From NCBI GenBank assembly GCA_017548445.1, contig JAFYZZ010000082.1, positions 1 through 38,200 on the forward strand: 38,200 bases of DNA. The letters are read 5' to 3'. Positions 3,042 to 32,403 of the stretch are shown here, one piece after another (the first letter of the stretch is position 1; each line of letters starts with the position of its first letter). The notes under the pieces are model-generated. The model searched no databases. It had not been told where the DNA came from and saw only the letters and a program-made list of their open reading frames with translations. Source of the DNA: Bacteroidales bacterium. GTDB taxonomy: Bacteria; Bacteroidota; Bacteroidia; Bacteroidales; UBA932. Position numbers and translations under genes: made by a program.

Positions 3042-4312
3042 ACGTTCATCAATATGCGGCGCGACTTCGGGAGCAGGTTGTTGCATCGGGAGCCGATGTT
3101 CTTGACGAAGCCCAAAGGGTGGCCGAGATAGGTGATCACATTGTAGCCGGGCGCGGCCTGCGGCAGCACGAGCGCGTCCCGGTGCAGGAAGCGCAAGGCG
3201 GTCTGCCGGTCCACGTCGACGGCCGGATAGTCCCTGCTATCAAATATTATGCTCAAGGCATAGTCGGCGTCCGGCAGGAAGTCCTTTCCCTTCGTCTCTC
3301 CTTTCCGGATGCCGCTGCGCAGGGGATGCAGCAGGTCGGGGGAGACGTTCTTCGCGACCGCCTGCGGGGCGGTCTTGCGCAAGGCTCCCGCCCACTGGCC
3401 TTCGCCGGGCACGATGCCCGCTTCCAGCAGGTGTCCGTGCGGGGTGCGCCGCACGCCGTATTCCTCGAATTCCGGCTCCGGCTCCAGGATCTCCCCGCCC
3501 AGTTCGGAAGCCGCCCAGGCGAGGTTTTCGTCGTTCTCCGCCGGCTCATAGGTGCAGGTGCTGTAGACGAGCAGGCCGCCTTCGCGCAGCGCAGGCCACA
3601 CGTCCGCGAGGATGCGCTTCTGCCGGGCGGCGCAAAGCTCCACCACCGCGGGGCTCCATTCCTCCCGGGCGCGGGGGTCCTTGCGGAACATCCCTTCGCC
3701 GCTGCAGGGCACGTCGGCCACGATTACGTCGAACCAGCCCGCCAAGCGGGCGAAAGCCGCCGGATCCACGCTCGTGACGACCACGTTGGGGTCCCCCCAG
3801 CGCGCCACGTTGTCGTCCAGCACGCCCACGCGCGCCTTCATCACCTCGTTCGCCACCAGCACGAACCCGTCCCCGCACGCCTCCCGCAGCGACGCCGCCA
3901 GGTCCGTCGTCTTCCCGCCCGGCGCCGCGCACAAATCCAGCACCCGGAAGACCTGTTGGCCCGAAGTGGAAGCGGCAGCAGCCCCTCCGGACCGTTGCCA
4001 CCCTCGGCACGTAAGAGGGAGGGGCCCGCCGCTTTGCGGTGGGAGGGGTCCGGCGCAGCCGGAAGTCCGGAGGGGCTGGCTGCCGTGGAACGAAGGGCAA
4101 TCGGTCAACAGTTTCCGGAAGAGGTGCCCGACAAACATAGCGGAAGAGTCCTGGACGTAGTAGCATCCGGCGTGGAAGAGGGGGTCGAGCGTGAAGACAG
4201 GGCGGTCGGCCAGGATGCGGCCATACGGCGACCAGGGGACCGGAGAACCTTCCGGCCCCGCCAGCCCCTTGAAAGGATTCAGACGGATCGAGACCGACGC
4301 CTCCTCCATCAT
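3038..4312 (-). CDS. RsmF-like rRNA (cytosine-C5)-methyltransferase carrying an in-frame palindromic repeat
   Basis: A NOL1/NOP2/Sun family SAM-dependent methyltransferase of the RsmF (YebU) type that modifies cytosine in rRNA. Visible motifs: SIRLNPFKG near residue 8, QDSSAMF at 54-60, SAM motif LDLCAAPGGKTT at about 125-136, the catalytic-loop motif DVPCSGEGMFRKDPRAREEW, and YSTCTYEPAENDE with the second cysteine. A C-terminal PUA-like part ends with a region resembling the family's NNxxPK motif. Residues about 76-114 are encoded by palindromic element E1 and have no counterpart expected in the family; flanking helix (FRKLLTDCP) and strand (FRVLDLC) remain in frame. The ATG at 4312 overlaps the stop of the SRPBCC gene (ATGA). 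The N-terminus is shorter than usual for the family. Whether the enzyme is active with the insert cannot be told from sequence. Confidence 0.9.
   Translation of the reverse strand: MMEEASVSIRLNPFKGLAGPEGSPVPWSPYGRILADRPVFTLDPLFHAGCYYVQDSSAMFVGHLFRKLLTDCPSFHGSQPLRTSGCAGPLPPQSGGPLPLTCRGWQRSGGAAAASTSGQQVFRVLDLCAAPGGKTTDLAASLREACGDGFVLVANEVMKARVGVLDDNVARWGDPNVVVTSVDPAAFARLAGWFDVIVADVPCSGEGMFRKDPRAREEWSPAVVELCAARQKRILADVWPALREGGLLVYSTCTYEPAENDENLAWAASELGGEILEPEPEFEEYGVRRTPHGHLLEAGIVPGEGQWAGALRKTAPQAVAKNVSPDLLHPLRSGIRKGETKGKDFLPDADYALSIIFDSRDYPAVDVDRQTALRFLHRDALVLPQAAPGYNVITYLGHPLGFVKNIGSRCNNLLPKSRRILMNV
3972..4085. repeat. Palindromic element E1, inside the rsmF-like gene
   Basis: Left arm 3972-3993 and right arm 4065-4085 are complementary (GCCCCTCCGGAC against GTCCGGAGGGGC perfectly, extended outward by CGGCAGC/GCTGCCG with one bulge). 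The core 3994-4050 is identical to that of E2 at 54 of 57 positions; the three differences are one hairpin loop (TTT here, AAA in E2). Inner hairpins: CCCTC/GAGGG around GGCACGTAA, CCCGCCGC/GCGGTGGG around TTT, and CCGGC/GCCGG around GCA. GTGGAA occurs directly at both edges (3966-3971 and 4085-4090) and could be a target duplication. The element adds coding sequence in the minus frame without a stop. Confidence 0.9.
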
Positions 4313-4752
4313 CCGCGGAACTCCTCCGGCATCTGCGGCATACGCCCCTCGGAGGCGTCCACCAGGCCGTCCACCATCTTGTCGAGGGCGTCCTGCAGCT
4401 TGTTGCCCAGGATCGTCTTCATCATAAAGTTGAGGTTGGCGTCCAGGTCGATCCAGAAATCGGTCCGCCCGGGAATGGCTGACGGTTCGAAATGCAGCAC
4501 GCCCACGAACTCCACGGGCGACTCCGCGCTGCCGATGCGGATCAGCCGGTAAGGCTGCCGCTCGTCCACGCGCACGCCGATCCGGAACCCCTGCACCGTA
4601 GCGGTGAGGTGGTCGAAATCCGCCTCGATCTCCGCCTTGACCTTGTCCTGCGGGATCATCTGGGCGAAATTGCGCAGGTCGGTGAAGGCCATATACAGTT
4701 CTTCGGGCCGCTTGGCCACCTGTCCGTGCTTGCTGGTATAATGTGCTGTCAT
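4309..4752 (-). CDS. SRPBCC (START/polyketide-cyclase-like) fold protein
   Basis: The 147-residue protein looks like the small cytoplasmic Bacteroidetes proteins of the SRPBCC/START superfamily: an N-terminal strand followed by RPEELYMAFTDLRNFAQMIP, a central strand series (DFDHLTATVQGFRIGVRV, FVGVLHFEPS, TDFWIDLDANLNF) and a long C-terminal helix (LGNKLQDALDKMVDGLVDA). The fold forms a cavity for hydrophobic ligands; the ligand here is unknown. The last residues (MPQMPEEFRG) look like a tail beyond the fold. It is the first gene of the operon with rsmF-like and TPR genes; its stop TGA overlaps the next ATG at 4309-4312. Promoter box TATCTTTG lies 33 nt upstream. Confidence 0.75.
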   Translation of the reverse strand: MTAHYTSKHGQVAKRPEELYMAFTDLRNFAQMIPQDKVKAEIEADFDHLTATVQGFRIGVRVDERQPYRLIRIGSAESPVEFVGVLHFEPSAIPGRTDFWIDLDANLNFMMKTILGNKLQDALDKMVDGLVDASEGRMPQMPEEFRG

Positions 4753-4768
4753 AGTCGCTAAAAATGAT

Positions 4769-4793
4769 TACATTTGCATTCGGTGCAAAGATA
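4769..4793. promoter_or_regulatory. Overlapping divergent promoter region
   Basis: Two perfect TAnnTTTG boxes face apart: TACATTTG on the plus strand at 4769-4776 for the Nudix gene (28 nt before its ATG) and TATCTTTG on the minus strand at 4793-4786 for the SRPBCC operon (33 nt before its ATG). The boxes are only 9 bp apart, so the two polymerase footprints overlap and the promoters probably compete. Confidence 0.6.
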
Positions 4794-4804
4794 GCAATTT
4801 TCCG

Positions 4805-5416
4805 ATGCACAAGATATATTTCGAAAAACGCTGCATCATCATCTGCAGCCCCGGCGAGCAGGCGCTCTCCGATCCCAACGCCGTGGAGTTCCATTTCGGC
4901 GAGAACGTCAACATCCACACCCTCGTGGCGATGTTCGAAGCCTCGCAGTCCCTGTCGCGCATCTACATCCCCACGGGCAACACGGCCTGGATGTACCGCC
5001 GCGTCTGCGCCGAGTTCCGCGAGGTCGACGCCGCCGGCGGGCTCGTCTCCAACCGGCGGGGCGACTACCTGCTCATCCAGCGCAGCGGCCTCTGGGACCT
5101 GCCGAAAGGACATAGGGAAGCAGGCGAGGACATCGCCGTCACGGCCCTGCGCGAAGTGCAGGAGGAGACCGGTGTGGACCAGCTCGAACTGCGGGACCTT
5201 ATCTGCGTCACCGACCACTGCTACCTGCGCGGCGGCGTATGGCACCTCAAACACACCTGGTGGTACGATATGCTCTATACCGACCCGGTGAACCTCACCC
5301 CGCAGCGCGAGGAGGACATCACCCGCGCCGCCTGGGTGGCCCGTTCCAGCCTGCCCCCGTACCTCAAGAACACCTACCCCTCCATCCAGGAGGTCTTCCG
5401 CGAAGCGAAAGTATAA
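4805..5416 (+). CDS. Nudix hydrolase
   Basis: Nudix enzymes hydrolyse nucleoside diphosphates linked to another group. Residues 102-124 (GHREAGEDIAVTALREVQEE plus TGV) match the Nudix box GX5EX7REUXEEXGU, with the metal-binding REVQEE intact. The preceding LLIQRSGLWDLPKG is the usual strand leading into it. The first 80 residues form a separate N-terminal region (HKIYFEKRCIIICSPG) that is not part of the Nudix fold and is seen in Bacteroidetes paralogues. Total length 203 residues. Substrate cannot be assigned. A lipoprotein gene follows after 13 bp, probably on the same transcript. Confidence 0.92.
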   Translation: MHKIYFEKRCIIICSPGEQALSDPNAVEFHFGENVNIHTLVAMFEASQSLSRIYIPTGNTAWMYRRVCAEFREVDAAGGLVSNRRGDYLLIQRSGLWDLPKGHREAGEDIAVTALREVQEETGVDQLELRDLICVTDHCYLRGGVWHLKHTWWYDMLYTDPVNLTPQREEDITRAAWVARSSLPPYLKNTYPSIQEVFREAKV

Positions 5417-5429
5417 AGTATAAAATAAG

Positions 5430-6662
5430 ATGAAAAGATTCCTGCTTCTCCTGGCTGCCTGTACGCTCGTCGCGACCGGCTGCCCCCGGAATCCCGGCCA
5501 GAACGCCGGCGGCGATCCCGGCGTGGTGACTCCGGACGATCCCGGGACCGAACCTGCCGGTACCGTGGAAACCGCCGGCAAGGATTTCTCTTTCGACGAA
5601 CTCTTCAAGATCTTCTCGGTCTTCGGCGACAACATTATGTCGGCGAAGTTCGCCCCGCAGAGCGTCAAGGACGGCATCAAGGCGGAGCTGAAGGAGTCCT
5701 ACGAAGGGGCCGTGCAGTTCACGGGGCCTTGCAACCATCTGGCATACAGCCTGTTCGACGGCAACTGCTACGACGGCTTCGAGCTGGCCTGCTACCGCTA
5801 CTCCGCCGACGACCACGTCCTGGCGGTGCTGCTGGAGAACGGCGGCTGCGACGTCTCGTCCGTCAAGTACATCCGGGCGTACGAGTACGACCCGGAGAGC
5901 GGCGGCGCCCGCGAGGTGGAACTCCCGTTCAACCCGGCGCCGCAGCGCGACGACTTCGAGGATATGGTTCGCCTGGCGGGCTCCGACGTGGCGTCACTGC
6001 GCGGCGCGATGAAGGCAGGCCTTTATGACTACCAGTGGCGTTCCGACGGCGTGCTGGTCCGGCTGAACGACCCGATGGACTATGACGAGCAGGTCTATCA
6101 CGGAGCCCTGTTCGTGGACTATCGCTGGAACGGCTACGAATTCGGGATCAACCGGGATTACGTGTATCCCAGCATCCACGCCGACGGCTTCGGAAACATC
6201 CTGCTCGGCAGGCCGGCGCCGGACTTCGATTTCGACTATGACCCGAAGGGTTACGATGCGCGGTATTCGGAAGGCGGCGACCTCTGGCTCATCGAACTGG
6301 GAGGCCGGAGGGTACTCGAGGTGCAGATGGAGTTCGACAAGGTGCAGTCCATCGAAGTCTTCTCCCCGAAGTACTGCGTGACCGAGGCCGGCTACGACCA
6401 CGACGGCAAGCAGCAGCCCCGCGTGGGCGGCCGCATCAACGACTGCCTCGAGTTCGGCGAGGAGTCCCCGCAGGTCTGGATGCTGATGGACGGCACGGTG
6501 CAGATCGAGGACGACATCTGGAACAGCCGGATCGCGTTCCGCGCGCCCCGGGAGTCCCTGGTGGATCCGCCGCAGCCCTCGTCGAACGGGCGCCTCCGGA
6601 TCGAGGATCCGAAGTTCAAGTCCGACGCCACCATCGAGTCCATCCTCCTCTGGCGCGACTGA
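5430..6662 (+). CDS. Putative lipoprotein of unknown function
   Basis: I do not recognise a family. The 410-residue protein begins MKRFLLLLAACTLVATGC, a lipoprotein signal with a probable lipid-modified cysteine at 18, followed by a flexible stretch rich in Gly, Pro and Asp (about residues 20-50). The rest is acidic, rich in aromatic residues and strand-like (YDYQWRSDGVLVRLNDP, VDYRWNGYEFGINRDYVYP), consistent with a beta-rich periplasmic or surface domain. Possibly disulphide-forming cysteines occur at about residues 100-150 (GPCNHL, GNCYDGF, LACYRY, GGCDVSS). It follows the Nudix gene by 13 bp with a short GTATAAA direct repeat between them. It converges with the LolC/E-like gene, with 14 bp between the stops. 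Confidence 0.7.
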   Translation: MKRFLLLLAACTLVATGCPRNPGQNAGGDPGVVTPDDPGTEPAGTVETAGKDFSFDELFKIFSVFGDNIMSAKFAPQSVKDGIKAELKESYEGAVQFTGPCNHLAYSLFDGNCYDGFELACYRYSADDHVLAVLLENGGCDVSSVKYIRAYEYDPESGGAREVELPFNPAPQRDDFEDMVRLAGSDVASLRGAMKAGLYDYQWRSDGVLVRLNDPMDYDEQVYHGALFVDYRWNGYEFGINRDYVYPSIHADGFGNILLGRPAPDFDFDYDPKGYDARYSEGGDLWLIELGGRRVLEVQMEFDKVQSIEVFSPKYCVTEAGYDHDGKQQPRVGGRINDCLEFGEESPQVWMLMDGTVQIEDDIWNSRIAFRAPRESLVDPPQPSSNGRLRIEDPKFKSDATIESILLWRD

Positions 6663-6676
6663 GAATCCAGATTATT

Positions 6677-7837
6677 TTATTCCGCCTTAACGGTCTGGGC
6701 GGGGTCGACCTTTGAAATGAACAGGGTGGGGATCAGCAGCAGGAGCAGGATTCCCGCAAAGGCCGCGACGTCCGCGAGCAGGATGCCGGGCAGGTTCACG
6801 TGCACCGGCACGAAGGAGACGAAGTAGTTCTCCGGATTCAGCTTGAGCAGGTGCGTGGTGCCCTGGACCAGGCAGAAAAGCAGGGCGGCGGCGTTGCCGA
6901 TGGCCATTCCGATGGCCACGGTGCGGGCTCCCACCCGCAGGAACACTCCCGCGATGGAGCGGTCCGTCATCCCCAGCGTCTTGAGCGTGCCGATGGTGGA
7001 GATGTTCCGGAACAGCAGGATCAGCAGCCCGGAAATCATATTGAACCCCGCCACGACGGTCATCAGCAGCAGGATCGCATAGACGTTGAAATCAATCAGG
7101 TCCAGCCAGTCGAACAACTGGGCGAAGCGGTCCGTGGCCGAGACGGCCCGAAGGGGCTCCTCGTCGTCGTGGGCGCCGGCCGTGGCGCGCCAGCCGAGTT
7201 CCTCGGCGGCCCGCAGGACGTCCCTGCGGCCGGTGTGGCGCGCATCCAGGCCCACTTCCAGCAGGGAAGCCTGGTCCGGCTCCCAGCCGCAGACGCGCCG
7301 CAGGTCGCCGATGGGCACGTACAGGATCTGGCTGTCCATCGTCTCCACCGGATTGTCATACAGCGCGACGACGTGCCATTTACGGATCTTCACCTTGTCG
7401 CCCACGAACCAGGCCGTGAGGTCGTCGCCGGGCTGCACGCCCAGCTTGTCCGCCAGCGAAGAAGGCACCCGCACGCCCAGGGAGGCGGTGTCGGCCTGCG
7501 TGCCCTTGAACAGCACACCGTGGATGTCGTCGCCCGCCTGCAGGATGCCGGCGGAATAGATGACCGGATCGATCCGTTCCACGCCTTTCACCGCCCGGAG
7601 CGCATCCAGGTAAGAGGGTTCCGTGCAGACGGGGTCGGACCGGCCGGTCAGGTCGGCGGCGGCGTTCGTCAGCAGGACGTCTCCCGTGACCGCGGACACG
7701 CTGCCACGGATCTCCCGGCGGAACCCCGCGGAGATGGCGACGGCCACGATCATCACAAGGAAAGAGATGGCTATCGCAGCGACAGCCATCTTTTCCTTGA
7801 AACGCAGACGCGAGGCGACGAAGCCTTCCGCCTTCAT
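6677..7837 (-). CDS. ABC transporter permease of LolC/LolE (FtsX) type
   Basis: The 386-residue membrane protein has the LolC/E layout: one N-terminal membrane helix (MAVAAIAISFLVMIVAVAISAGF, about residues 16-38), a large periplasmic domain of about 200 residues (with a GDDIHGVLFKGT segment typical of the MacB/LolE fold), and three C-terminal helices (about 253-280, 305-330, 350-372). The cytoplasmic coupling motif ISTIGTLKTLGMTDRSIAGVF after the second helix and KVDPAQTVKAE at the end are FtsX-family signatures. LolCDE releases lipoproteins from the inner membrane to LolA. No ATPase gene (LolD) is nearby. The gene starts 4 bp after the stop of the M13 peptidase gene and is surely cotranscribed with it. 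Confidence 0.88.
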   Translation of the reverse strand: MKAEGFVASRLRFKEKMAVAAIAISFLVMIVAVAISAGFRREIRGSVSAVTGDVLLTNAAADLTGRSDPVCTEPSYLDALRAVKGVERIDPVIYSAGILQAGDDIHGVLFKGTQADTASLGVRVPSSLADKLGVQPGDDLTAWFVGDKVKIRKWHVVALYDNPVETMDSQILYVPIGDLRRVCGWEPDQASLLEVGLDARHTGRRDVLRAAEELGWRATAGAHDDEEPLRAVSATDRFAQLFDWLDLIDFNVYAILLLMTVVAGFNMISGLLILLFRNISTIGTLKTLGMTDRSIAGVFLRVGARTVAIGMAIGNAAALLFCLVQGTTHLLKLNPENYFVSFVPVHVNLPGILLADVAAFAGILLLLLIPTLFISKVDPAQTVKAE

Positions 7838-7841
7838 CGGC

Positions 7842-9854
7842 TTACCAGATATGGACGCGCTCGCTCTCCGGACGCCACATCGGGTCTCCCTCCTGGATGC
7901 CGAAGGCGTCGAAGAAGGTGCCGAAGTTGCGCAGGGTCACGTTCACGCGGTTGTCGCCGAGGGAGTGGACGTCGAGTTTGGTCAGGCGGGCCCGCTCCTC
8001 GTCGGTGATGTTCTGCGCCCACACGCGGGCATAGCCGAGGAAGAAGCGCTGGGCGGCGGTCAGACCGTCGATCGGCTCGGGCTCCACCCCGCCGAGGGCG
8101 TTGTGCAGGGCCGTCCAAGCCACGCTCACGCCGCCGTGGTCGGCGATGTTCTCACCGAGTGTCAGCTCTCCGTTGGCCTTCACGCCCGGCAGGACCTCCA
8201 CCTCGTTGAACTGGTCCACCAGCACGTGCGTCTTCTTCACGAAGGCGGCGCGGTCCGCGGCGGTCCACCAGTTGTTCATATTGCCGTCCTTGTCGAACAG
8301 GCTGCCCTGGTCGTCGAAGCCGTGGGTCATCTCGTGGCCGATCACCACGCCGATGGCGCCGTAGTTCACGGCATCGTCGGCCTCCGGGTTGAAGAACGGC
8401 GGCTGCAGGATGCCGGCCGGGAAGCAGATCTCGTTGGTCGTCGGGTTATAGTAGGCGTTCACCGTCTGCGGAGTCATTCCCCACTCGGTGGGATCCGTGG
8501 GCTTGCCGAGCTTGGACAGGTTGTCCTGCACGTACCAGGCGCTGGCGGCGCGCAGGTTCTCGTAGTAGCTCAGCTCCGGGTCCACGGTGAGGGTGCTGTA
8601 GTCCTTCCACTTGTCGGGATAGCCGATCTTCACGGTGAAGGCCTCCAGTTTCTCGCGGGCCTTGGCCTTGGTGGCGTCGGACATCCATTCCAGGGAGTCG
8701 ATGTGCTCTCCGAGGGAGACCTGCAGGTTCTTCACCAGGTCGAGCATCTTCTGCTTGGAGGTCTCGGGGAAGAACTTGGCCACATACATCTGGCCCACGG
8801 CCTCGCCGAGGATGCTGTTGGGCACGCTCATCGCGCGCTTCCAGCGCGGCTTCTGCTCGGTCACGCCGCTCATCTGGGTGCTGTAGAAGTCGAAGTTGGC
8901 GGCATAGAAGTCGTCGGACAGGCTGCTCGCGGCGCCATTGATCAGCTGGGCGGCCACGTAGTCCTTCAGGACGTCCAGCCTGCTGTCCTTGAAGAGCTTG
9001 CTGAAGCCCTGGAAGAAGGAAGGCTGCTCCACGATCACCTTGTCCATCTCCGGAAGACCCATCGCGGCGGCGAAGGCCTTGAAGTCGAAGCCCGGGTAGG
9101 CTTTGTAGATCTGGGCGGAGCTCATCGGGTTGTAAAGCTTCTCGACGTCGCGGTTCTGCACGCTGGTCCAGGAGAATTCGGCGAGTTTGTCCTCGATGCC
9201 GGCGGCGTTGGCGGCACGAAGTTCGGGGCTGTCCAGGCCGGCGAGGGTAAAGAACTTGGCGAGCATCGCCTCGTAGCCCTTGCGCAGCTCGGCGTTGGCC
9301 GGGTCCACGTAGTAGTCGCGGTCGCCCATACCGAGGCCGCCCTGGCCGAGGTAGAAGACCTGGGTCTTGCTGTCCATCAGGTCGGCGTCCACGCCGCCTC
9401 CGAAAAAGCCGCCTTCGCCCACGAGGTTCATCTTGCCCAGATGTGCGGCAAGCGCCTTCTTGTCAGGCAGGGCGTAGATCTCTTCGAGGTATTTTTTCAG
9501 CGGGGCCGCACCTTCCGCGTTCAGGCGGGTGGAGTCGAGGCCCAGCTTATAGAGGTCCACGATCTTCTGGTCGATGCTCCCGGGTTCCGGGTTCATTTCC
9601 GTCATCTCGGAGAACAGGGCGTTGAGGTCTTCCACGTTCTTCTCGCGCAGCACGTCGAAAGAACCGAAACGGGCGTACTCGGCCTTGAGGGGGTTCTCCT
9701 TCATCCAGCCACCGTTGGCGTACAGGTAGAAATTGTCACCGGGTTTGACGCTGAGGTCCATATCGGCCGGATCGAGGGCCGGGGTCTTCACTTCCTTGGT
9801 CTGGCAGGCCGCCAGCATCATCAGGGGAATCATAAATGCAAATAACTTTTTCAT
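7842..9854 (-). CDS. M13 family (neprilysin-like) zinc metallopeptidase, lipoprotein
   Basis: A 670-residue member of the neprilysin/PepO family, normal length. The zinc site is intact: HEMTH in VIGHEMTHGFDDQG with the third ligand in GENIADHGG. Other family hallmarks are NAYYNPTTNEICFPAGILQPPFF before the zinc motif, and a C-terminus ending in ERVHIW, similar to the CRVW end of neprilysin. The N-terminus MKKLFAFMIPLMMLAACQ is a lipoprotein signal with lipidated Cys17, so the enzyme is probably anchored in the periplasm or at the surface. The ATG at 9854 is chosen over an upstream in-frame start because it begins the signal peptide and lies 35 nt after a TATATTTG box. It cleaves oligopeptides; a LolC/E-like permease follows 4 bp on. 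Confidence 0.95.
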   Translation of the reverse strand: MKKLFAFMIPLMMLAACQTKEVKTPALDPADMDLSVKPGDNFYLYANGGWMKENPLKAEYARFGSFDVLREKNVEDLNALFSEMTEMNPEPGSIDQKIVDLYKLGLDSTRLNAEGAAPLKKYLEEIYALPDKKALAAHLGKMNLVGEGGFFGGGVDADLMDSKTQVFYLGQGGLGMGDRDYYVDPANAELRKGYEAMLAKFFTLAGLDSPELRAANAAGIEDKLAEFSWTSVQNRDVEKLYNPMSSAQIYKAYPGFDFKAFAAAMGLPEMDKVIVEQPSFFQGFSKLFKDSRLDVLKDYVAAQLINGAASSLSDDFYAANFDFYSTQMSGVTEQKPRWKRAMSVPNSILGEAVGQMYVAKFFPETSKQKMLDLVKNLQVSLGEHIDSLEWMSDATKAKAREKLEAFTVKIGYPDKWKDYSTLTVDPELSYYENLRAASAWYVQDNLSKLGKPTDPTEWGMTPQTVNAYYNPTTNEICFPAGILQPPFFNPEADDAVNYGAIGVVIGHEMTHGFDDQGSLFDKDGNMNNWWTAADRAAFVKKTHVLVDQFNEVEVLPGVKANGELTLGENIADHGGVSVAWTALHNALGGVEPEPIDGLTAAQRFFLGYARVWAQNITDEERARLTKLDVHSLGDNRVNVTLRNFGTFFDAFGIQEGDPMWRPESERVHIW

Positions 9855-9889
9855 CGTATGAATGTTTGTTATGTTTTCGAAACGAATCG

Positions 9890-9897
9890 CAAATATA
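9890..9897 (-). promoter_or_regulatory. Candidate -7 box (TATATTTG) for the M13 peptidase operon
   Basis: The minus-strand TATATTTG is an exact match to TAnnTTTG and lies 35 nt before the ATG at 9854. Confidence 0.55.
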
Positions 9898-9916
9898 CTG
9901 TTTTTTCCGGAAAGAG

Positions 9917-9937
9917 ATTCCGGGCCGGGGCCGGAAT
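9917..9937. repeat. Short GC-rich palindrome in the divergent intergenic region
   Basis: ATTCCGG (9917-9923) and CCGGAAT (9931-9937) are perfect inverted repeats around GCCGGGG. The wording (ATTCCGG...CCGGAATGAC) resembles small dispersed palindromic repeats common in many bacterial genomes. It lies between the divergent promoters of the M13 peptidase and DUF6198 genes. Only one copy is clear in the window, so its repeat nature is inferred. Confidence 0.4.
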
Positions 9938-9957
9938 GACAATTTCGTTTTTTTTCC

Positions 9958-9965
9958 GATATTTG
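9958..9965 (+). promoter_or_regulatory. Candidate -7 box (GATATTTG) for the DUF6198 gene
   Basis: GATATTTG differs from TAnnTTTG only in its first base and ends 8 nt before the ATG at 9974, so the transcript would have almost no leader. Confidence 0.45.
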
Positions 9966-21479: not shown

Positions 21480-21480
21480 G

Positions 21481-21770: not shown

Positions 21771-21778
21771 TATCTTTG
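21771..21778 (+). promoter_or_regulatory. Candidate -7 box (TATCTTTG) for rsmG
   Basis: Exact TAnnTTTG match just after the regulator's stop. Its last four bases (TTTG) are also the first bases of the left arm of element E2, so transcription would begin inside the arm. Confidence 0.5.
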
Positions 21779-21908
21779 CGTCTGCGGCCCTGACCTCCCG
21801 GGAGACGTTGCCACCCTCGGCACGTAAGAGGGAGGGGCCCGCCGCAAAGCGGTGGGAGGGGTCGAGCAAAGCGAGACGCTCCCGGGAGGTCAGGGCTGCA
21901 GACGCAAA
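21775..21908. repeat. Palindromic element E2, in the rsmG leader
   Basis: Left arm 21775-21804 and right arm 21879-21908 pair over 30 nt, with one G-T (G-U in RNA) as the only deviation. The 57-nt core at 21807-21863 equals that of E1 except for the AAA loop. The core contains the hairpins CCCTC/GAGGG and CCCGCCGC/GCGGTGGG; a third short stem, GTC-GA-GC/GC-GA-GAC (21861-21877), has two adjacent G-A mismatches. The right arm ends 4 nt before the rsmG ATG. The arms bear no resemblance to those of E1. Confidence 0.92.
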
Positions 21909-21912
21909 GGAA

Positions 21913-22533
21913 ATGAAGAATCAAGAACAATACGAGCCGATGGTGGCACTGTACCGCGAATGGAACGCGCGGATCAACGTCGTGTCCCGCAAGGACATCG
22001 ACGCGCTGTACGAGCACCATATCCTCCACTCGCTGGCCATCGCCGAATACGTGAACCGTTTCTATCCGGGTGCTTTCGAAGGCGCCCGGATTCTCGATCT
22101 GGGAACGGGCGGCGGCTTTCCGGGCATTCCGCTGGCGATGGAATTCCCTCAGGCGCACTTCACGCTCTGCGATTCCATCGGCAAGAAGGTCCGGGTGGCG
22201 CAGGCGGTCGCCGAGGCTCTGGGCCTGCAGAACGTCAGCTGCGTCAATGCGCGGGCGGAGTCGCTGCCCGGTCCCTACGACTGGGTGGTCTCGCGCGCCG
22301 TCACCTCGCTGGACAACTTCTACCCTTGGGTGAAGGGGAAATTCAACCGCGGCATTCTCTATCTGAAGGGGGGCGACGTGGCCCCGGAGATTGCGGAACT
22401 GACCCGGAAATGCCGGGTCGAACCCGGCCGGATCCGCGTCTGGAAGATCGCCGAATGGCTGAAAGATGAATATTTTGCAGAAAAATTTGTAATTGAAATC
22501 GGAAAAGATTACCTTTGCCCTCCCAAATTTTGA
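21913..22533 (+). CDS. rsmG: 16S rRNA (guanine(527)-N7)-methyltransferase RsmG
   Basis: Methylates N7 of G527 in 16S rRNA using SAM. The 206-residue protein has the family length, with N-terminal YREWNARINVVSRKDIDALYEHHILHSLA, the SAM motif ILDLGTGGGFPGIPLA at 60-75, VVSRAVTSLDNFYPWV and LYLKGGD. The ATG at 21913 is correct: the frame extends upstream to 21808, but those 35 residues are encoded by element E2 and give a repetitive basic peptide absent from the family. The leader is a strong hairpin (E2) ending 4 nt before the ATG, which could limit ribosome access. rpmH follows after 19 bp. Confidence 0.96.
   Translation: MKNQEQYEPMVALYREWNARINVVSRKDIDALYEHHILHSLAIAEYVNRFYPGAFEGARILDLGTGGGFPGIPLAMEFPQAHFTLCDSIGKKVRVAQAVAEALGLQNVSCVNARAESLPGPYDWVVSRAVTSLDNFYPWVKGKFNRGILYLKGGDVAPEIAELTRKCRVEPGRIRVWKIAEWLKDEYFAEKFVIEIGKDYLCPPKF
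22510..22517 (+). promoter_or_regulatory. Candidate -7 box (TACCTTTG) for rpmH, inside the end of rsmG
   Basis: Exact TAnnTTTG match within the last codons of rsmG (KDYLCPPKF), 35 nt before the rpmH ATG. It would let the ribosomal protein gene be transcribed independently of rsmG. Confidence 0.5.
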
Positions 22534-25298: not shown

Positions 25299-28112
25299 AT
25301 GAGTCCATTTCTGGAACAGGTGGCGCGGCACTATTTCGCCGCAGGAGAAGTTGAAGACCTGTGCTTCATCTTCCCGAACCGCCGTGCGCTGGTTTTTTTC
25401 CGGAAATATCTGGGAGAATGCGTCGCGCGCGGCGGCCGCCCCCTGCGGGTGCCCGCCCTGTATACGATGAACGATTTCTTCTACCGGGTGTCGGGCGCCG
25501 GGCAGACCGATCAGGTGCACCTGCTGCTGGAACTGTACGGCTGCTATAAGGAGCTGAATCCCAAGGCGGAAAGCCTGGACGACTTCATCTTCTGGGGCGG
25601 GGTGCTGCTGTCGGATTTCGACGACGTGGACAAGTACCTGGTGAATCCGGAGCGGCTGTTCACCAACATCGCGGACTTCCGCGGGATGCAGGACGACCTT
25701 TCCTGGGTCGACGACCGGCAGGAAGCCGCCATCCGCAAGTTCCTTTCGAACTTCAGCACGGGGGGCAGGTACAAGGAGGAGTTCCGCCGCATCTGGGACA
25801 TCCTGCTGCCGCTTTACCGGAGTTTCAACGCCCGGCTGCGCGAAAAGGGGATGGCCTATGAGGGACAGGTGTACCGTGCGCTGGCGGACCGGCTGGCCGG
25901 AGAATCCGTGGCGGACGTGCTTCCGGAGGCGTTCGGGCAGGTCCGGAAGTTCGTGTTCGTGGGGCTCAACGCCCTCAATGAATGTGAAAAGCGCCTGATG
26001 CGGCGCCTGCGGGACGCCCGCCTGGCGGAATTCTGCTGGGATTACGGGAAAGGCTGGATCAGCGACCCCGCCAACAAGTCGTCGCTCTTCCTTTCGAAGA
26101 ATGTACTGGAGTTCCCCCAGGCGTTCGAACCCGACCCGGAGGGCCTCGGGGAGCCGGAAATCAGCGTGCTCAGCGTCCCTTCGGGCGTGGGGCAGGCCAA
26201 GCAGATTCCCGCCATCCTGGATTCCCTGGGCGCCGGAGGCATCGAGACGGCCGTCGTGCTGCCCGACGAAGGCCTGCTCCTGCCTGTGCTGAATTCGATT
26301 CCGGAACGCATCGCGGACATCAACGTCACGATGGGCTATCCGCTTTCGGGCAGTGCGCTGTCTTCCCTGATGGACGACGTCGCCGCCCTGCAGCTTCATC
26401 TGCGCGAGAAGGACGGGCAGTGGCATTTTTATCACAAGCAGGTCTGGAGCATCTTCTCCAACAGCATCTTCAAGACCGTGACGGGCGATGCGGGCAGGGA
26501 ACTGGCCGCCAGGGTGCGCAAGGCCGCCCGCTATTACATCCCTCAGTCCGAGTTGAACGACCTGCCGCTCTTCGACAAGATATTCCGGCCGGTGGTCAAA
26601 GACCCCGGTGCGGCCGACCCGGAAACGGTCCGGGCGCTGGAGGAATACCAGCGGGACCTGCTCGCCTTCCTGGGGAGCAGCCTCCGGGAAGAGCCCGGGA
26701 TGGCGCTGGAACTGGATTTCATCCGGGAGTACTACCTGGCCGTGGGGCGTCTGGCCGACTGCGCGCTGCCCGTGAAGGCAGCCAGTTATTTCCGCCTGCT
26801 GGAGCAGCTGGTGGCGGGCACGAAGGTCCCGTTCCGCGGCGAGCCGCTGAAGGGGCTGCAGATAATGGGCCCGCTGGAGACGCGCGCCCTGGATTTCAGG
26901 AACCTCATCCTGCTGAGCTGCAACGAAGGGATGTTCCCCCGGCGCAACGTGGCATCCTCCTTCATCCCGGCTGAATTGCGCCGGGGTTTCGAACTGCCCA
27001 CCTATGAGTACCAGGATGCCGTCTGGGCCTATTATTTCTACCGGATGATCCGGCGTGCGGAGCGTGTGTGGCTGCTGCTCGATTCGCGCACGGACGGCCT
27101 GCGGGGCGGCGAGGAAAGCCGTTTCATCAAGCAGCTTGAACTGCATTTCGGCGCCCGTCTGTCGCGTTGTGTCCTCCGGGCCCCGATCAGCAAGCCGGAC
27201 GAGGAGGACGGCATACCCAAGACGGCGGAGCAGCTGGAAGAGTTGCGGAAGCACAACCTTTCTGCCTCCTCGCTGGAGAACTACCTGTTCTGTCCGGCGA
27301 AGTTCTACTATGGCAAGGTCTGCGGCCTCAAGGACGAGGAGGAGGTGTCGGAGTCGCTGGAGGCGAACGACATCGGCGACGTCTTCCACAAGGCGATGCA
27401 GCTACTCTATGACGACCCGGACAAGTTCGTGGGCCGGGATTACCTGAAGTCCGTACTGAAGGGGAACCGCATCCAGGACCTGGTGCGTGGCCTGATCCTC
27501 GAAAAACTGCATTGCTTCGAGTTGGCCGGGCGGAATATCGTATTCGCCGATATGATCGTGCGTTACGTGCGGAAAGCCGTGCAGCGCGACATTGAATACC
27601 TGGAGAAGGAGAACGTGGAAGGATTCCGCATCCTCGGTCTCGAAAAGGAGTATTTCGCCCTGATGGGCGGATTCCGTTTCCGGGGCTTCCTGGACCGCGT
27701 GGACAGCATCCGCCCCGGGCGGCTCCGCGTGCTGGACTACAAGACCGGAAAAGTGACGGATGCGGATTTCCTGATTACGGCGGGCAATGCGGAGGAAGTG
27801 GTGGACGCCCTGTTCGGCAACGACAACGGCAAGCGCCCCAAGATCGCCCTCCAGCTATACCTCTACGACCGTCTGATCGCCGAAATCCCGGAGTTTCAGG
27901 GCTGGACCGTCGAGAACACGGTTTACCAGCCTTCCCGCCTGTTCGTGCGGGAGGTGGAGAACGTTTCGCTCGACGGGCGTTTCCTGGAACTGATGGAAGA
28001 GCGGATGGGGGCCCTTCTGGCCGAAATCTCGAATCCGGAGGAACCCTGGCGGCGCACGCCGGACCGGAAAACCTGCGAATGGTGTGACTTCAAAAACATC
28101 TGCGGACGATGA
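25299..28112 (+). CDS. addB: AddB-like subunit of the AddAB helicase-nuclease
   Basis: AddAB resects double-strand breaks for recombination. The 937-residue protein has the AddB layout: an inactive helicase-like N-terminal half (CFIFPNRRALVFFRKYLG near residues 20-45) and a C-terminal PD-(D/E)XK nuclease, GFRFRGFLDRVDSI and LRVLDYKTGKV at about 795-825. Four cysteines for the iron-sulphur cluster are visible: one in LFCPAKFYY near 664, and CEWCDFKNIC at the very end. The ATG at 25299 starts the conserved part; the 22 upstream residues of the open frame cover the promoter. It overlaps addA by ATGA. Confidence 0.92.
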   Translation: MSPFLEQVARHYFAAGEVEDLCFIFPNRRALVFFRKYLGECVARGGRPLRVPALYTMNDFFYRVSGAGQTDQVHLLLELYGCYKELNPKAESLDDFIFWGGVLLSDFDDVDKYLVNPERLFTNIADFRGMQDDLSWVDDRQEAAIRKFLSNFSTGGRYKEEFRRIWDILLPLYRSFNARLREKGMAYEGQVYRALADRLAGESVADVLPEAFGQVRKFVFVGLNALNECEKRLMRRLRDARLAEFCWDYGKGWISDPANKSSLFLSKNVLEFPQAFEPDPEGLGEPEISVLSVPSGVGQAKQIPAILDSLGAGGIETAVVLPDEGLLLPVLNSIPERIADINVTMGYPLSGSALSSLMDDVAALQLHLREKDGQWHFYHKQVWSIFSNSIFKTVTGDAGRELAARVRKAARYYIPQSELNDLPLFDKIFRPVVKDPGAADPETVRALEEYQRDLLAFLGSSLREEPGMALELDFIREYYLAVGRLADCALPVKAASYFRLLEQLVAGTKVPFRGEPLKGLQIMGPLETRALDFRNLILLSCNEGMFPRRNVASSFIPAELRRGFELPTYEYQDAVWAYYFYRMIRRAERVWLLLDSRTDGLRGGEESRFIKQLELHFGARLSRCVLRAPISKPDEEDGIPKTAEQLEELRKHNLSASSLENYLFCPAKFYYGKVCGLKDEEEVSESLEANDIGDVFHKAMQLLYDDPDKFVGRDYLKSVLKGNRIQDLVRGLILEKLHCFELAGRNIVFADMIVRYVRKAVQRDIEYLEKENVEGFRILGLEKEYFALMGGFRFRGFLDRVDSIRPGRLRVLDYKTGKVTDADFLITAGNAEEVVDALFGNDNGKRPKIALQLYLYDRLIAEIPEFQGWTVENTVYQPSRLFVREVENVSLDGRFLELMEERMGALLAEISNPEEPWRRTPDRKTCEWCDFKNICGR

Positions 28113-30907
28113 AGATCCTGAAAGCCAGCGCCGGGTCGGGCAAGACATACCGCCTTTCCAAGCATTACGTGGACCTTCTGCTGAAGGACCGGGAGCCGTA
28201 CCGGCACCGCAATATCCTGGCCGTGACCTTCACCAACAAGGCCACCGCCGAGATGAAGAACCGTATCCTGGAGGATCTCGCCAAGCTCGCGGAAACCAGC
28301 CCGGACGCGCGGAAAAGGCTCACGGAGCTGCTGCACGACTACGGCGCTTTCTCCGTGAGTACCATCGACCGCTTCTTCCAGCGGGCGCTGAAGGCCTTCT
28401 CGCGGGAGCTCGGCCAGTTCGCCGACTACCAGATCGAGCTGGACAAGGAGTCGCTGATCGTGGAGACGATGGACCGTATCCTGGATTCGCTGACGGAAGA
28501 AGACCGCGAACTGCTGGAATGGATCCGCTCCGCCCTGGAGGAAACCCTCTCGCAGGGCGACCGTTTCTTCCTGGACGCCGGCCTGAAGGACGTGGGAATG
28601 TTGCTGAAGAACGACGAACACCGCGACCTGGTGCAGCGTTTCGGCATTTCCGATACGGACGCGTTCGGCAAGGAGCGGCTCGGGCGGATCCGCCGGGAAT
28701 GCCGTGGCGTCATCCGCGAGTTCACGGAACGCGCCGCCGCGCTGGGTTTCCCGGTGGAACGGGGGAAGATCATCTCCCCGAAGAACAAGCTCAAGCTGAT
28801 CAAGGCCACGCCCGGGCTGCCGGAGCTGTTCGAAGAGGCTTCCTACCGTCCGTACTGCACGGCGTGGATCCTGGACCGGATGCTCTTCCAGCTGGGTTTC
28901 GCGGGGGAATTCTACCGGGCCTTCGACGCCCTGCTCCGCGAGAAGAACCTGATGTGCCTGGACGAGTCGAACACCATCCTGCGCGACATCATCGGCGGCT
29001 CCGACGCTCCCTTCGTCTATGAGAAGCTGGGCGTGCGCTATGAGCATTTCCTGCTGGACGAATTCCAGGACACCTCCCACATCCAGTGGGACAACTTCCT
29101 GCCTCTGCTCAAGGAAAGCGAGTCACACGGCGGCAGCAACCTGCTGGTGGGCGACATCAAGCAGAGCATCTACCGTTTCCGCGACTCCGACTGGCGGCTG
29201 CTGGGCGAGGAGGTGGGCCGGGAATTCCCGGAAGCCCGGGAAGAGGTGATGAAAGGCAACTGGCGCAGCACGGAGGAAGTGGTGGACTTCAACCATCGCT
29301 TCTTCTCCTTCGCGTCGGAACTGCTGGGCCTGCAGAAGATCTATGCCGAGGAGAAGCCCCTGGTGATGCGGAAAGAAGAAAAACAGCGGGGCTGCGTCCG
29401 GGTGAGTTTCTGTGACGACCAGGACGCCGCCGTGGTGGATTCCGTGCTGCAGGCGCACGACGCCGGCGCCCGGTGGAACGACATCGCCATCCTGGTGCGC
29501 AACAAGCAGGAAGGCGCCCGGCTCGCCGCCTGCCTGATCGAACGGGAAATTCCCGTCATCTCCGATGATTCGCTGGACCTCAAGGGCTCTCCGGTGGTGC
29601 GGCGCCTGGTGTCGCTGCTGAATCACTACGAGAACCCCGACGACTCCATCGGCAGTTTCCTGGCCCGGTCGCTGGAGATAGAATACCCGGAGCGCTACCA
29701 TTCCCTGGCGGATTTCTGCGAACAGCTGGTCCGGTCCCTGCAGGAGCGCGATCCCGGCTCTTTCGAAGGCCAGCTCCTGTTCGTGCAGGCCTTTATGGAC
29801 GTGCTGCAGGACTGGACGCGGACCAACGGAAACAACCTCCGCTATTTCCTCAAGTCGTGGGAGGAGCAGGGCAGCATCTATATCGGTTCGCCGGAAGACG
29901 CCGCTTCGGTGCGGGTGCTCACCATCCACAAGTCCAAGGGGCTGCAGTTCCCCCACGTGATCTTCCCTTACGCGGAGAAGGTGGGACTCTACAAGAGCGG
30001 TACGCACTGGTGCCGGCTGGATCCGTCCGCGACCACCCTGAAAGAGGCGGCCGGGGGCATCTATCCGGTGGCGCTGGATTCGCTGGCAGAGCAGAGCGAC
30101 TTCGCGGAAGCCGTGCGGCAGGAGCGCCGGATGCAGCTGGTGGACAACATCAACCTCTTCTACGTGGCAATGACGCGCGCGGAGAAGAGCCTGCACGTGA
30201 TTGCTAAGACCTCGACGGACAAGCTCCGCAAGGGGATTCAGAAAGGTTCTCCGGAGCCGGGCAATTTCGCCGAGATCCTGTACGTCTTCCTGAAGGGTAT
30301 GGATGAAACGGTGTGCGGGCAGCCGTACGACTTCACCCGGATGAAGCGGAAGGAAGAGACTTCCGAAAAGGTCTTTCCCGCCGCGTTCCCTTCCATCCCG
30401 CCCGGCGGGCGGCTCGCCCCTTCGTCCGACGCCGCCGATTTCTTCGGGCCGGACGGTGCGACGGGTCCCGACGCCTCGGTGCGCCTGCGCGGCATCGTGC
30501 TGCACGACATCCTCTCGGAAGTGAAGGGCCCTGCGGACCTGGACGCCGCCGTGGACGCCGCCGTGCGCGACGGACGGCTGGACGCCGCCGGAGGCGAAAG
30601 CGCCCGCACGCTGCTGCGGGAGCGTATCGCCGCGCATCCCGGCTGGTTCCCGGAAGCGTCCGGATCCGGCGTCCGGGTGGTCAACGAGCAGGACGTCTTC
30701 GACGCGGACGGCAAGGTGGAGCGCCCGGACCGCGTGGTCGTGCGGGGCAGGGAAGCCGTGATCGTGGACTACAAGTTCGGCCGCGAGGAAGAAAGCTACC
30801 GCCGGCAGCTGCGCCGATACGCCCGGCTCTGGCACGAACTTGGCTATGAAGTGCGTGGAGCATACATATGGTATGTTGAGGATGATAAAACCGTAGAAGT
30901 GATATGA
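28109..30907 (+). CDS. addA: AddA-like UvrD-family helicase-nuclease
   Basis: Motor subunit of AddAB. The 932-residue protein has UvrD helicase motifs in order: LKASAGSGKTYRLS (Walker A, residues 4-17), VTFTNKATAEMKNRI, LLDEFQDTSHIQWDNFLPLL near 314 (Walker B, DEFQD), VGDIKQSIYRFRDSDW, VLTIHKSKGLQFPHVIFP and LFYVAMTRAEKSLHVI. The C-terminal nuclease is short, with VIVDYKFGREEESYRRQLRR near 887. It overlaps addB at its start (28109-28112) and the LolA-like gene at its end (30904-30907). Confidence 0.95.
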   Translation: MKILKASAGSGKTYRLSKHYVDLLLKDREPYRHRNILAVTFTNKATAEMKNRILEDLAKLAETSPDARKRLTELLHDYGAFSVSTIDRFFQRALKAFSRELGQFADYQIELDKESLIVETMDRILDSLTEEDRELLEWIRSALEETLSQGDRFFLDAGLKDVGMLLKNDEHRDLVQRFGISDTDAFGKERLGRIRRECRGVIREFTERAAALGFPVERGKIISPKNKLKLIKATPGLPELFEEASYRPYCTAWILDRMLFQLGFAGEFYRAFDALLREKNLMCLDESNTILRDIIGGSDAPFVYEKLGVRYEHFLLDEFQDTSHIQWDNFLPLLKESESHGGSNLLVGDIKQSIYRFRDSDWRLLGEEVGREFPEAREEVMKGNWRSTEEVVDFNHRFFSFASELLGLQKIYAEEKPLVMRKEEKQRGCVRVSFCDDQDAAVVDSVLQAHDAGARWNDIAILVRNKQEGARLAACLIEREIPVISDDSLDLKGSPVVRRLVSLLNHYENPDDSIGSFLARSLEIEYPERYHSLADFCEQLVRSLQERDPGSFEGQLLFVQAFMDVLQDWTRTNGNNLRYFLKSWEEQGSIYIGSPEDAASVRVLTIHKSKGLQFPHVIFPYAEKVGLYKSGTHWCRLDPSATTLKEAAGGIYPVALDSLAEQSDFAEAVRQERRMQLVDNINLFYVAMTRAEKSLHVIAKTSTDKLRKGIQKGSPEPGNFAEILYVFLKGMDETVCGQPYDFTRMKRKEETSEKVFPAAFPSIPPGGRLAPSSDAADFFGPDGATGPDASVRLRGIVLHDILSEVKGPADLDAAVDAAVRDGRLDAAGGESARTLLRERIAAHPGWFPEASGSGVRVVNEQDVFDADGKVERPDRVVVRGREAVIVDYKFGREEESYRRQLRRYARLWHELGYEVRGAYIWYVEDDKTVEVI

Positions 30908-31344
30908 AAAGATGGATATTTCCCCTGCTGGCCCTGCTGCTGCCCCTGACGGCGGCGGCCCAGGTGTCCTCGCAGCAGGTCGCCGAAATCGCGTCGCACC
31001 TGGACAATAGCCGCATCTCGATGCACTATGCCTGCACGTTCACGCAGGACACCCCCCTGAAGCTGTCCGGCACCCTGCTCATCCAGGGTGAATGTTACCG
31101 GGCCCAGGGCAACGGGATGGAGATCTACTGCGACGGCACCACCCGCTGGACGGTGGATCCGGAAGCGAAGGAAGTTTACGTCGAGACCTCCGGCGGCCTG
31201 GAGGAACTCCTGCTGTACCGCGACTCCCTGACAGAACTGAAACTCTCCGACGTGAAGTATCAGCCTCTGTCCGAGGATCTTACGGCCTTCGTCTTCGACA
31301 CGGCCGCCCTGGATTCCTCCTGGATCGTCACGGACCTGAGGTAG
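30904..31344 (+). CDS. LolA-like periplasmic lipoprotein carrier
   Basis: The 146-residue protein has a signal peptide (MKRWIFPLLALLLPLTAAAQ) and a single LolA-like beta fold: ISMHYACTFTQDTPLKLSGTLLIQGECYRAQGNG, then IYCDGTTRWTVDPEAKEVYVE. LolA carries lipoproteins from the inner to the outer membrane. It is shorter than classical LolA, like many Bacteroidetes members, so a specialised role is possible. The ATG overlaps the addA stop (ATGA), which puts a cell-envelope gene at the end of a repair operon. The cysteines at about 45, 63 and 75 are unusual for LolA. Confidence 0.78.
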   Translation: MKRWIFPLLALLLPLTAAAQVSSQQVAEIASHLDNSRISMHYACTFTQDTPLKLSGTLLIQGECYRAQGNGMEIYCDGTTRWTVDPEAKEVYVETSGGLEELLLYRDSLTELKLSDVKYQPLSEDLTAFVFDTAALDSSWIVTDLR

Positions 31345-31371
31345 TCTCTTGTGCAGATTCGAAAGAATTCC

Positions 31372-31379
31372 GATATTTG
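31372..31379 (+). promoter_or_regulatory. Candidate -7 box (GATATTTG) for mltD
   Basis: GATATTTG ends 4 nt before the mltD ATG, with a TTG about 20 bp upstream as a possible -33 element. It predicts a leaderless transcript. Confidence 0.5.
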
Positions 31380-31383
31380 TGCT

Positions 31384-32274
31384 ATGAACAAACCGTTAGC
31401 CCTCCTTCTGCTGGCCTGCTGCCTCTGCCTGCCGGCCCGGACCAGCGCCCAATACGTCTATATCCCGGAAGACATCCATTTCCAGCCGCCCCACGTGCCG
31501 GAATACATCGAATTCGCCGGGCAGACCATCCGCTTCGACCGTCCCGACCTCTATGAACGGATGGACCGCGAGCTGATCAACTTCACTTACGGCCACACCA
31601 ACACCCTGCTGATGCTCAAGCGCTCGAAGCGCATCTTCTCGCAGGTCGTGCCCATCCTGGAAAAGAACGGGGTGCCCGAGGACCTGAAATACCTGATGGC
31701 CATCGAGAGCAACCTCGACCCCAAGGCCTACTCTTCGGCCGGGGCTGCGGGACTGTGGCAGTTTATGAAGGCCACCGGCCGCTCCTACGGCCTGGAAGTC
31801 GGGGACGAGGTGGACGAGCGCTACCACATTGAAAAGGCCACCCAGGCCGCCTGCAAATACCTTAAGGAGGCTTATGCCAAGTACGGCGACTGGATGACGG
31901 TCGCGGCCAGCTACAACGCCGGCCAGGGCGGCATCTCCAAACGGCTGACGGACCAGCGGCAGAAACGCGCGATGGACCTTTTCCTGGTCACGGAGACATC
32001 CCGCTATATGTTCCGCATCCTGGTGGCCAAGATGCTCTTCGAAAACCCCGAGGCCTTCGGTTTCCACCTGGAAGACGAGGACTATTATCCCGTCCTTCCG
32101 CCGAAGGAAACCGTGACCGTCAGCGGCCCGATCGAGAACTTCACGGACTTCGCCGAACAGCACGGCTCGACCTATTTCTTCCTAAAAGAAGCCAACCTCT
32201 GGCTCCGCAGCGACAAACTCACCAACAAATCCGCCAAAACCTACAAGGTAGTAATACCTACCTCGACCTATTAG
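31384..32274 (+). CDS. MltD-like lytic murein transglycosylase
   Basis: Cuts peptidoglycan strands in the periplasm. The 296-residue protein has a signal peptide (MNKPLALLLLACCLCLPART ending at SAQ), then an SLT domain with catalytic Glu108 in LKYLMAIESNLDPKAYSSAG, GAAGLWQFMKATGRSYGLEV and VAASYNAGQGGISKRL. These follow the MltD pattern. No LysM repeats are present, whereas classical MltD has them; the C-terminal 60 residues are instead a short basic tail (KTYKVVIPTSTY). The ATG at 31384 begins the signal peptide. The stop TAG shares its last base with the first base of element E3. Confidence 0.92.
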   Translation: MNKPLALLLLACCLCLPARTSAQYVYIPEDIHFQPPHVPEYIEFAGQTIRFDRPDLYERMDRELINFTYGHTNTLLMLKRSKRIFSQVVPILEKNGVPEDLKYLMAIESNLDPKAYSSAGAAGLWQFMKATGRSYGLEVGDEVDERYHIEKATQAACKYLKEAYAKYGDWMTVAASYNAGQGGISKRLTDQRQKRAMDLFLVTETSRYMFRILVAKMLFENPEAFGFHLEDEDYYPVLPPKETVTVSGPIENFTDFAEQHGSTYFFLKEANLWLRSDKLTNKSAKTYKVVIPTSTY

Positions 32275-32403
32275 CCGGCAGGCGGCAGCAGCCTCAGAAA
32301 ACTCTGCCACCCTCGGCACGATAAGAGGGGGGACCGCAAGCGAAGCGCAGCGGTGGGGTCCGACGTAGGAGGACGTTTCCGGAGGCTGGCTGCCGCTGCC
32401 GGC
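32274..32403. repeat. Palindromic element E3, between convergent mltD and ftsK
   Basis: Left arm 32274-32295 and right arm 32382-32403 are complementary over 21 of 22 nt with one bulge on each side (GCCGGCAG, CGGCAGC, AGCCTC against their complements). The arm sequence CGGCAGCAGCC is shared with E1. The core, from about 32304 to 32360, is a diverged version of the E1/E2 core: CTGCCACCCTCGGCACG is followed by an extra A, and the second hairpin is ACCGC/GCGGT around a longer loop. The element fills nearly the whole 135-bp gap and could end both transcripts. Confidence 0.88.

Follow-up and report, generated by a model that had tools for sequence, protein, structure and literature searches.

Rickettsia palindromic elements (RPE) are multi-copy palindromes of approximately 100–150 nt that are found between genes and also, in frame, within genes. 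Several further systems of dispersed or inverted repeats have been described. RU-1, RU-2, and RU-3 are enterobacterial small mobile sequences of 103–168 bp that are similar to miniature inverted-repeat transposable elements (MITEs) and also lie within genes (PMC2759123). Repetitive extragenic palindromes (REP) and bacterial interspersed mosaic elements (BIME) are dispersed palindromes that possibly serve as terminators or mRNA stabilisers (PMC3733652). Template switching between inverted repeats leads to homogenisation of the arms and inversion of the spacer, also in coding genes (PMC8604942; a further source is PMC8794818), and short spacers are favoured, the inverted spacers in yeast being 2–5 bp (PMC8604942). 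Here, we analysed a 38,200-nt stretch of DNA from a Bacteroidales bacterium (assembly GCA_017548445.1, contig JAFYZZ010000082.1, positions 1 to 38,200 of the forward strand), referred to below as the window. It carries three elements, E1 (3970..4089), E2 (21774..21909), and E3 (32274..32403), all in plus orientation, which denotes the sense of the conserved core. They are members of a structured family of approximately 130 nt, many copies of which occur in a single lineage of uncultured Bacteroidales at the rank of genus. We consider it rather likely, if far from certain, that the family consists of mobile palindromes similar to RPEs, in which DNA-level processes homogenise the arms and flip the body.

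Each of the three window elements is about 125 nt long, and they share TGCCACCCTCGGCACG..AAGAGGG in the core while their arms differ. The common core and the mutual complementarity of the arms within each copy, both noticed in the original prediction, were found at all three places, and the reported identity of 54 of 57 core positions between E1 and E2 is correct. The three differences amount to an inverted P3 loop, CCGC-TTT-GCGG in E1 (loop at 4033-4035) versus CCGC-AAA-GCGG in E2 (loop at 21846..21848), and this loop is the sole difference between the two cores. With a covariance model based on 45 copies, E1–E3 among them, three convincing matches were obtained in the window (E = 7.5e-18, 2.1e-17, and 2.8e-12), and the next-best matches were weak (E = 0.14 and 0.28). 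The scores were 54.7 bits for E1 (E=2.8e-12), 76.1 bits for E2, and 74.4 bits for E3. None of 4227 Rfam families matched the window at the gathering threshold, and the open-access literature covered by the search, judged from titles and the beginnings of abstracts, contained no description of this family.

The core is not confined to these three sites. A pattern scan with TGCCACCCTCGGCACG-N(0-10)-GAGGG in one genome per species returned at least 120 matches; those listed belong to Bacteroidales or Bacteroidia (L044 to Tidjanibacter), except for one in Curtobacterium (L007) and one in Solirubrobacteraceae (L055), and stem mostly from rumen and other animal-gut assemblies. The arm pairs are complementary in these further copies as well. 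Among the 117 matches with enough flank, the median complementarity score was 23 for a copy's own flanks and 9 when one flank was taken from another locus, and 107 exceeded a score of 15, which is above all 117 swapped-flank pairings. Five of the ten low-scoring matches still have visible arms (L016, L026, L046, L065, and L083), two seem to be truncated elements (L097 and L113), and three are chance matches (L007, L044, and L055). The core 15-mer, with at most one mismatch, matched 2–36 times in 32 of 33 genomes and once in the remaining genome, compared with 0–2 matches per genome for the reversed pattern. The covariance model matched 158 of 200 sampled genomes of the genus-level lineage of genome G018, possibly Cryptobacteroides, and 4 of 247 genomes drawn from the order, the seed genome G018 being one of the four. 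Both of these runs used stricter filters, with 17 or 14 candidates scored per genome, and the per-genome counts are thus lower bounds.

Viral contigs, searched with one pattern, and phages, searched with one blastn run, gave no match. On Azospirillum plasmids (L277 and L278), a 34-nt GC-rich hairpin matches the P3 region of E2 at 97%; the two records examined have no P2 or pseudoknot, and this candidate family member was rejected as convergence. In genome G028 (L057), the variant GCCACCCTCGGCACC is present in 9 of the 11 near-core matches listed, which suggests that copies were homogenised across the genome or arose in a recent burst.

The fold comprises a long stem P1 formed by the arms (approximately 24–30 bp), a P2 hairpin with an H-type pseudoknot, and the hairpins P3 and P4, which vary in length. 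P2 is TGCC(ACCCTC)GGCA, and CCCTC in its loop pairs with GAGGG approximately six bases downstream. This P2-plus-pseudoknot pattern occurred 334 times in the collected loci (overlaps counted), 176 times with complementary arms. When the pseudoknot word was reversed or left unchanged, 157 and 232 occurrences were obtained, none with arms; the complemented but not reversed word gave 193, of which 52 had arms, probably because GGGAG is part of GAGGGAGGGG. Other subfamilies alter both pseudoknot partners, from CCCTC/GAGGG to CCCGT/ACGGG, and P2 is closed by T-A, A-T, or G-C depending on the subfamily. In the 45-copy alignment, 87.6% of the cells are paired, and 362 double-change cells were counted versus 124 after shuffling (0 of 500 shuffles reached 362) and no more than 171 when the structure was slid.

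Comparison of orthologous sites, as the original prediction had proposed, revealed that the arms diverge yet stay paired. Two-sided flank homology grouped 160 detected elements into 34 sites. Arms were regarded as homologous when their similarity exceeded that of 99.5% of random pairs, and after one pair had been dropped for a flank identity of at least 97%, 70 pairs remained (53 with matching orientation and 17 inverted). Ten same-orientation pairs were set aside, either because under 15 base pairs could be compared or because their left arms differed by more than 45%. The other 43, with 959 base pairs, showed 73 double changes, 61 from one Watson–Crick (WC) pair to another and 12 of other kinds, versus 17.8 expected if the two sides changed independently; the one-sided changes comprised 20 that kept a standard pair and 39 that broke or repaired one. 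With a single pair per site, 39 double changes (31 WC-to-WC) compare with 9.9 expected, and at coding sites 13 (11 WC-to-WC) with 2.9. Among the 61 WC double changes there were 28 transitions and 33 transversions, a ratio of 0.85, which is close to the 0.88 in the flanks of the 53 same-orientation pairs (1866:2123). Compensation via G-U intermediates would favour transitions; as these are not in excess over the flanks, copying between the arms at the DNA level fits the same-orientation pairs better.

At orthologous sites, the body of the element occurs in both orientations. It was inverted with its arms kept at 10 of 28 sites (17 of the 70 homologous-arm pairs). The arms of inverted pairs agree better in the element's own frame, to approximately position 19, which indicates that the whole element flips. 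L139 and L215 illustrate this, as the inner 19 nt of both arms are alike in the element frame, including a mismatch, while the flanks are reversed. Paired change was also evident in the 13 usable inverted pairs, with 31 WC and 6 other double changes versus 9.7 expected.

A mechanism can be proposed in which a small, non-autonomous mobile palindrome would be inserted by a putative trans-acting enzyme. DNA polymerase template switching between the arms, or an equivalent event mediated by inverted repeats, would subsequently copy one arm onto the other, and the same process would flip the body of the element. Deletions would often remove the element, in some cases leaving hairpin stubs. Arm copying after insertion would render the arms variable yet always complementary without selection on each copy, and both arm homogenisation and spacer inversion are predicted by template switching between inverted repeats. 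Simple decay of a repeat, by comparison, does not account for a conserved core with variable, pairing arms, as was argued at the outset. If the proposed mechanism is correct, the family may represent a natural test bed for bacterial template switching, with many copies and orthologous inverted repeats in and between genes, and covariation by itself would not necessarily demonstrate selection on an RNA.

Several results weigh against this interpretation. The WC double changes of the inverted pairs include 22 transitions and 9 transversions (50:42 for both orientations together), opposite to the same-orientation pairs, so the test based on the mutation spectrum is not clean; furthermore, the ortholog pairs share sites and are non-independent, and the flanks include coding DNA, so that the flank ratio cannot be taken as purely neutral. 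Across the 53 same-orientation pairs, identity is 95.4% for the core 25-mer versus 79.7% for the flanks, a figure biased by a detector that favours intact cores. By a fairer count at five sites, 19 of 21 inserts kept at least 21 of 25 core positions (inserts of 110–200 nt in loci L181 and later, excluding the reference copies and the RsmF site); the two exceptions are a different palindrome in a dehydrogenase-E2 linker (L183) and a native terminator (L199). At the RsmF site, the core scores (of 25) are 18–23 in L152, L154, L155, and L158 and 7–10 in L151, L153, L160, and L161, which belong to other subfamilies. Most of the genomes had themselves been selected because they carry the element. 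A near-invariant P2/pseudoknot core is unexplained by arm switching; possible causes are selection acting on the fold and homogenisation among copies. In 6 of the 70 pairs, the orthologs have retained their arms and differ in P3 type, which hints at core replacement. Within P1, purine–purine mismatches form an internal loop at positions 5–7 from the core in the 120 copies, and 45 of 61 bulged bases in the 3' arm lie at positions 14–17 (46 of the 61 are G); features at such fixed places favour selection on a strand-specific fold. The excess of G.T over A.C mismatches in the arms (65:43 in all and 54:31 outside positions 4–8) is a modest sign of the same. The spacer of approximately 60–80 nt is long compared with the 2–5 bp described for yeast (PMC8604942), and here the element's own hairpins shorten it. 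Finally, the case for mobility is derived from copy number, scatter, and polymorphism, no event having been witnessed. None of the filled/empty comparisons offered a clean empty site together with a target duplication; their lone direct-repeat candidate, the 7-bp ATAAAAA in L183 versus L186, is of uncertain polarity and may mark a deletion, because the more distant relatives G007 and G020 carry the same element.

Many of these observations would be expected if a selected RNA or single-stranded DNA (ssDNA) fold kept each copy and the arm changes were classically compensatory, a serious rival that is possible although we lean against it. Selection on the structure was one of two origins offered in the original prediction, and part of that proposal stands: the fold, including a pseudoknot with covariation, is conserved, the core is nearly invariant at orthologous sites, the bulge, the purine loop, and the G.T asymmetry are in place, and the double changes of inverted pairs are rich in transitions. 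The remaining part sits poorly with the inversions, which are common although they would move the core to the other RNA strand, and with copies that lie within open reading frames (ORFs) in both orientations. The same-orientation double changes, without transition enrichment over the flanks, also fit template switching better, and the element is often missing at orthologous sites, for example in 8 of 17 rows at the IspE site. It is also conceivable, if rather doubtful, that the family is a mobile, pseudoknotted RNA or ssDNA element which is functional everywhere, its core being constrained or homogenised while template switching pairs the arms and flips the element. Mutation, and not selection alone, would then write the covariation that is usually taken as proof of RNA structure.

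The other origin offered in the original prediction, namely that insertion makes inverted copies of the target flank and hence new arms at every site, is not supported and appears very unlikely. Initial filled/empty pairs did suggest such copying, and the candidate was rejected when, with more species, the empty alleles of cases 1, 2, and 5 came to look like deletion remnants. In 79 of 120 copies, the arm starts with CC and a weak consensus extends to approximately position 24 (orthologs included), and arms are shared by different loci: E3 of the window with L158 and L066, two copies in L066, and L028 with L049. There is also a coding subfamily with shared arms, ending GGCGAGACC..GGTCGAGCC, and a subfamily with conserved arms, in which the near-constant unit CAGGTCTGG..CCTG recurs in a dozen loci with the ends CAGG..CCTG. 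At the case 3 site, where G007 is the sole filled allele of the 12 rows listed, the arms have no counterpart in the empty site, and approximately 17 native bases are gone. In favour of flank copying, 9 of 11 copies of the CAGGTCTGG..CCTG subfamily have at least five extra complementary bases just outside the unit, versus 9 of 110 swapped pairings (L386, whose ends differ, was left out; L378 and L381 in ksgA, L380 and L116, and perhaps L383 and L384 share a site). These outer 5 bp recur, however, as GGCGT/ACGCC at three loci and GTCGT/ACGAC at two. Because they repeat, often as GGCGT/ACGCC or similar, we read them as further element-derived arm.

Highly improbable, in our view, is a host origin of the arms, in which the core would have inserted into hairpin loops that were already there, for example in terminators. 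Core-less hairpins with related stems do exist at some orthologous sites (L231, L240, and L245; L408 and L411), and site A resembles a terminator that holds the core in its loop. The core-less hairpins can be read equally well as deletion stubs, and an arm consensus, a bulge at a fixed position, and an inner loop are unexpected for random host hairpins. Moreover, the folding energies of the empty rsmF alleles L156, L157, and L159 are -24 to -37 kcal/mol, compared with -124 for the window allele (lengths differ).

Copies within genes are a conspicuous part of the family. They lie in frame in loops of RsmF, IspE, KsgA, ArgD-like, and dehydrogenase-E2 proteins, and other copies are intergenic. 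RsmF matches were obtained in 118 of 121 genomes, and 30 were taken as loci; some are empty at the E1 site (L156, L157, and L159), others have different structured inserts in either orientation, and L155 has two. The genes for IspE, the dehydrogenase-E2 linker, the ArgD-like aminotransferase, and KsgA likewise carry variable inserts with recognised Pfam domains around them. All insert lengths listed at the dehydrogenase-E2 linker, IspE, and the gene of cases 1 and 5 are multiples of three, and the ORFs run through. Self-splicing or translational bypass at the coding sites was therefore rejected. At the RsmF site, L168 and L175 break the multiple-of-three rule, which we attribute to extrapolation across flank gaps. 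If the proposed mobile palindrome is real, this lineage, with palindromic inserts in loops of these five proteins, would represent an RPE-like source of new peptide segments outside Rickettsia.

Single loops of argD (L398-L420) and ksgA (L424-L446) appear to be hotspots, as many of the rows listed have different stacks of palindromic inserts and some have none. A second palindromic family, GCCGGACAGCNGCTCGAGCCCGGCCGCGTCC..GGCTGAGTACGGCCTAAGCTCGAC..GCTCCGGC, is present in the same genomes (L389-L397; L116:102-205 and 6628-6717; KsgA in L429 and L434), and in L391-L393, inspected by eye, complementarity outside its unit nowhere reaches five consecutive bases. The short palindrome TCATTCTGAGCGAAGCGAAGAATCT or its reverse is found in ksgA and argD loops (L428, L439, L422, and L412), with partial tandem repeats in L412 and L439. 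An insert CCCCCTGCACCCCC..GGGGGACTGAGGGGCGTTCCCCTCAGAC or its reverse occurs in ksgA (L426, L435, L438, and L440) and argD (L407) and often adjoins other palindromes.

In the window, E1 is not extragenic, which corrects the initial placement. It lies, antisense to its host, within an rsmF-like gene on the minus strand (3038..4312, start approximate; PF01189 at 1.7e-32, PF13636, and PF17125), inserted in frame after the N-terminal domain and before the catalytic motif LDLCAAPGGK, and the frame remains open. Its 5' arm (3972..3992) pairs with the 3' arm (4065..4084) to form P1, and the loop CCCTC of its P2 hairpin TGCC(ACCCTC)GGCA (3996..4009) pairs with the pseudoknot strand GAGGG (4015..4019); the P4 hairpin TCCGGC(GCA)GCCGGA occupies 4049..4063, and all of these parts are on the plus strand. 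E2 fills the intergenic space 5' of rsmG (gidB; 21913..22533, plus strand; PF02527 at 2.3e-36). The 31-nt 5' arm of E2 (21774..21804, plus strand) is 97% complementary to the 3' arm (21879..21909, plus strand), and its P2 hairpin, the linker CGTAA, and the pseudoknot strand GAGGG (21828-21832) span 21809..21832 on the same strand. At the outer edge of the 5' arm, TATCTTTG (21771-21778) resembles the Bacteroidetes -7 promoter box. The transcripts of rsmG might, on this likeness, begin within the arm, and E2 would then be part of the leader. In the E1/E2-type core (4015-4048 and 21828-21861), four G-runs (GAGGGAGGGG..GGGAGGGG) surround P3 and may form a putative quadruplex. E3 fills the gap between the convergent 3' ends of an SLT-domain gene (31351-32274, plus strand) and ftsK (32410-34848, minus strand). 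The P2 hairpin of E3, with the linker CGATAA and the pseudoknot strand GAGGG (32325-32329), lies at 32305..32329, and its 3' arm (32374..32403) pairs with 32274-32303, both on the plus strand.

Among the known systems, REPs (PMC3733652) differ in being 20–40 bp long with a tetranucleotide tag (GTAG or CGTC), whereas the present family is approximately 130 nt, and neither end of the 45-copy alignment, which was trimmed at a fixed distance, shows a conserved tetranucleotide. Terminal inverted repeats, i.e., the arms and the CAGG..CCTG ends of one subfamily, are a feature shared with MITEs; a MITE-type target duplication has a single 7-bp candidate, and none is clear in the other filled/empty comparisons. 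RU-1, RU-2, and RU-3 are, by description and not by sequence, alike in being small mobile repeats that also lie in genes, and their hosts differ (PMC2759123). With template switching (PMC8604942), the family shares homogenised arms and an inverted spacer; here, both are combined with a conserved body of 60–80 nt in a dispersed bacterial family. The RPE likeness comprises a multi-copy palindrome of approximately 100–150 nt and, as judged from the sequences, in-frame insertion into genes with open frames. Also by description, the present family differs from RPEs in its phylum, in its pseudoknotted four-helix core, in arms that diverge in pairs, and in inversion in place. Taken together, this comparison suggests a new family of small mobile palindromes, a known kind of element, in which joint arm change and in-place inversion are recorded with unusual clarity and which combines an RPE-like lifestyle with a pseudoknotted body.

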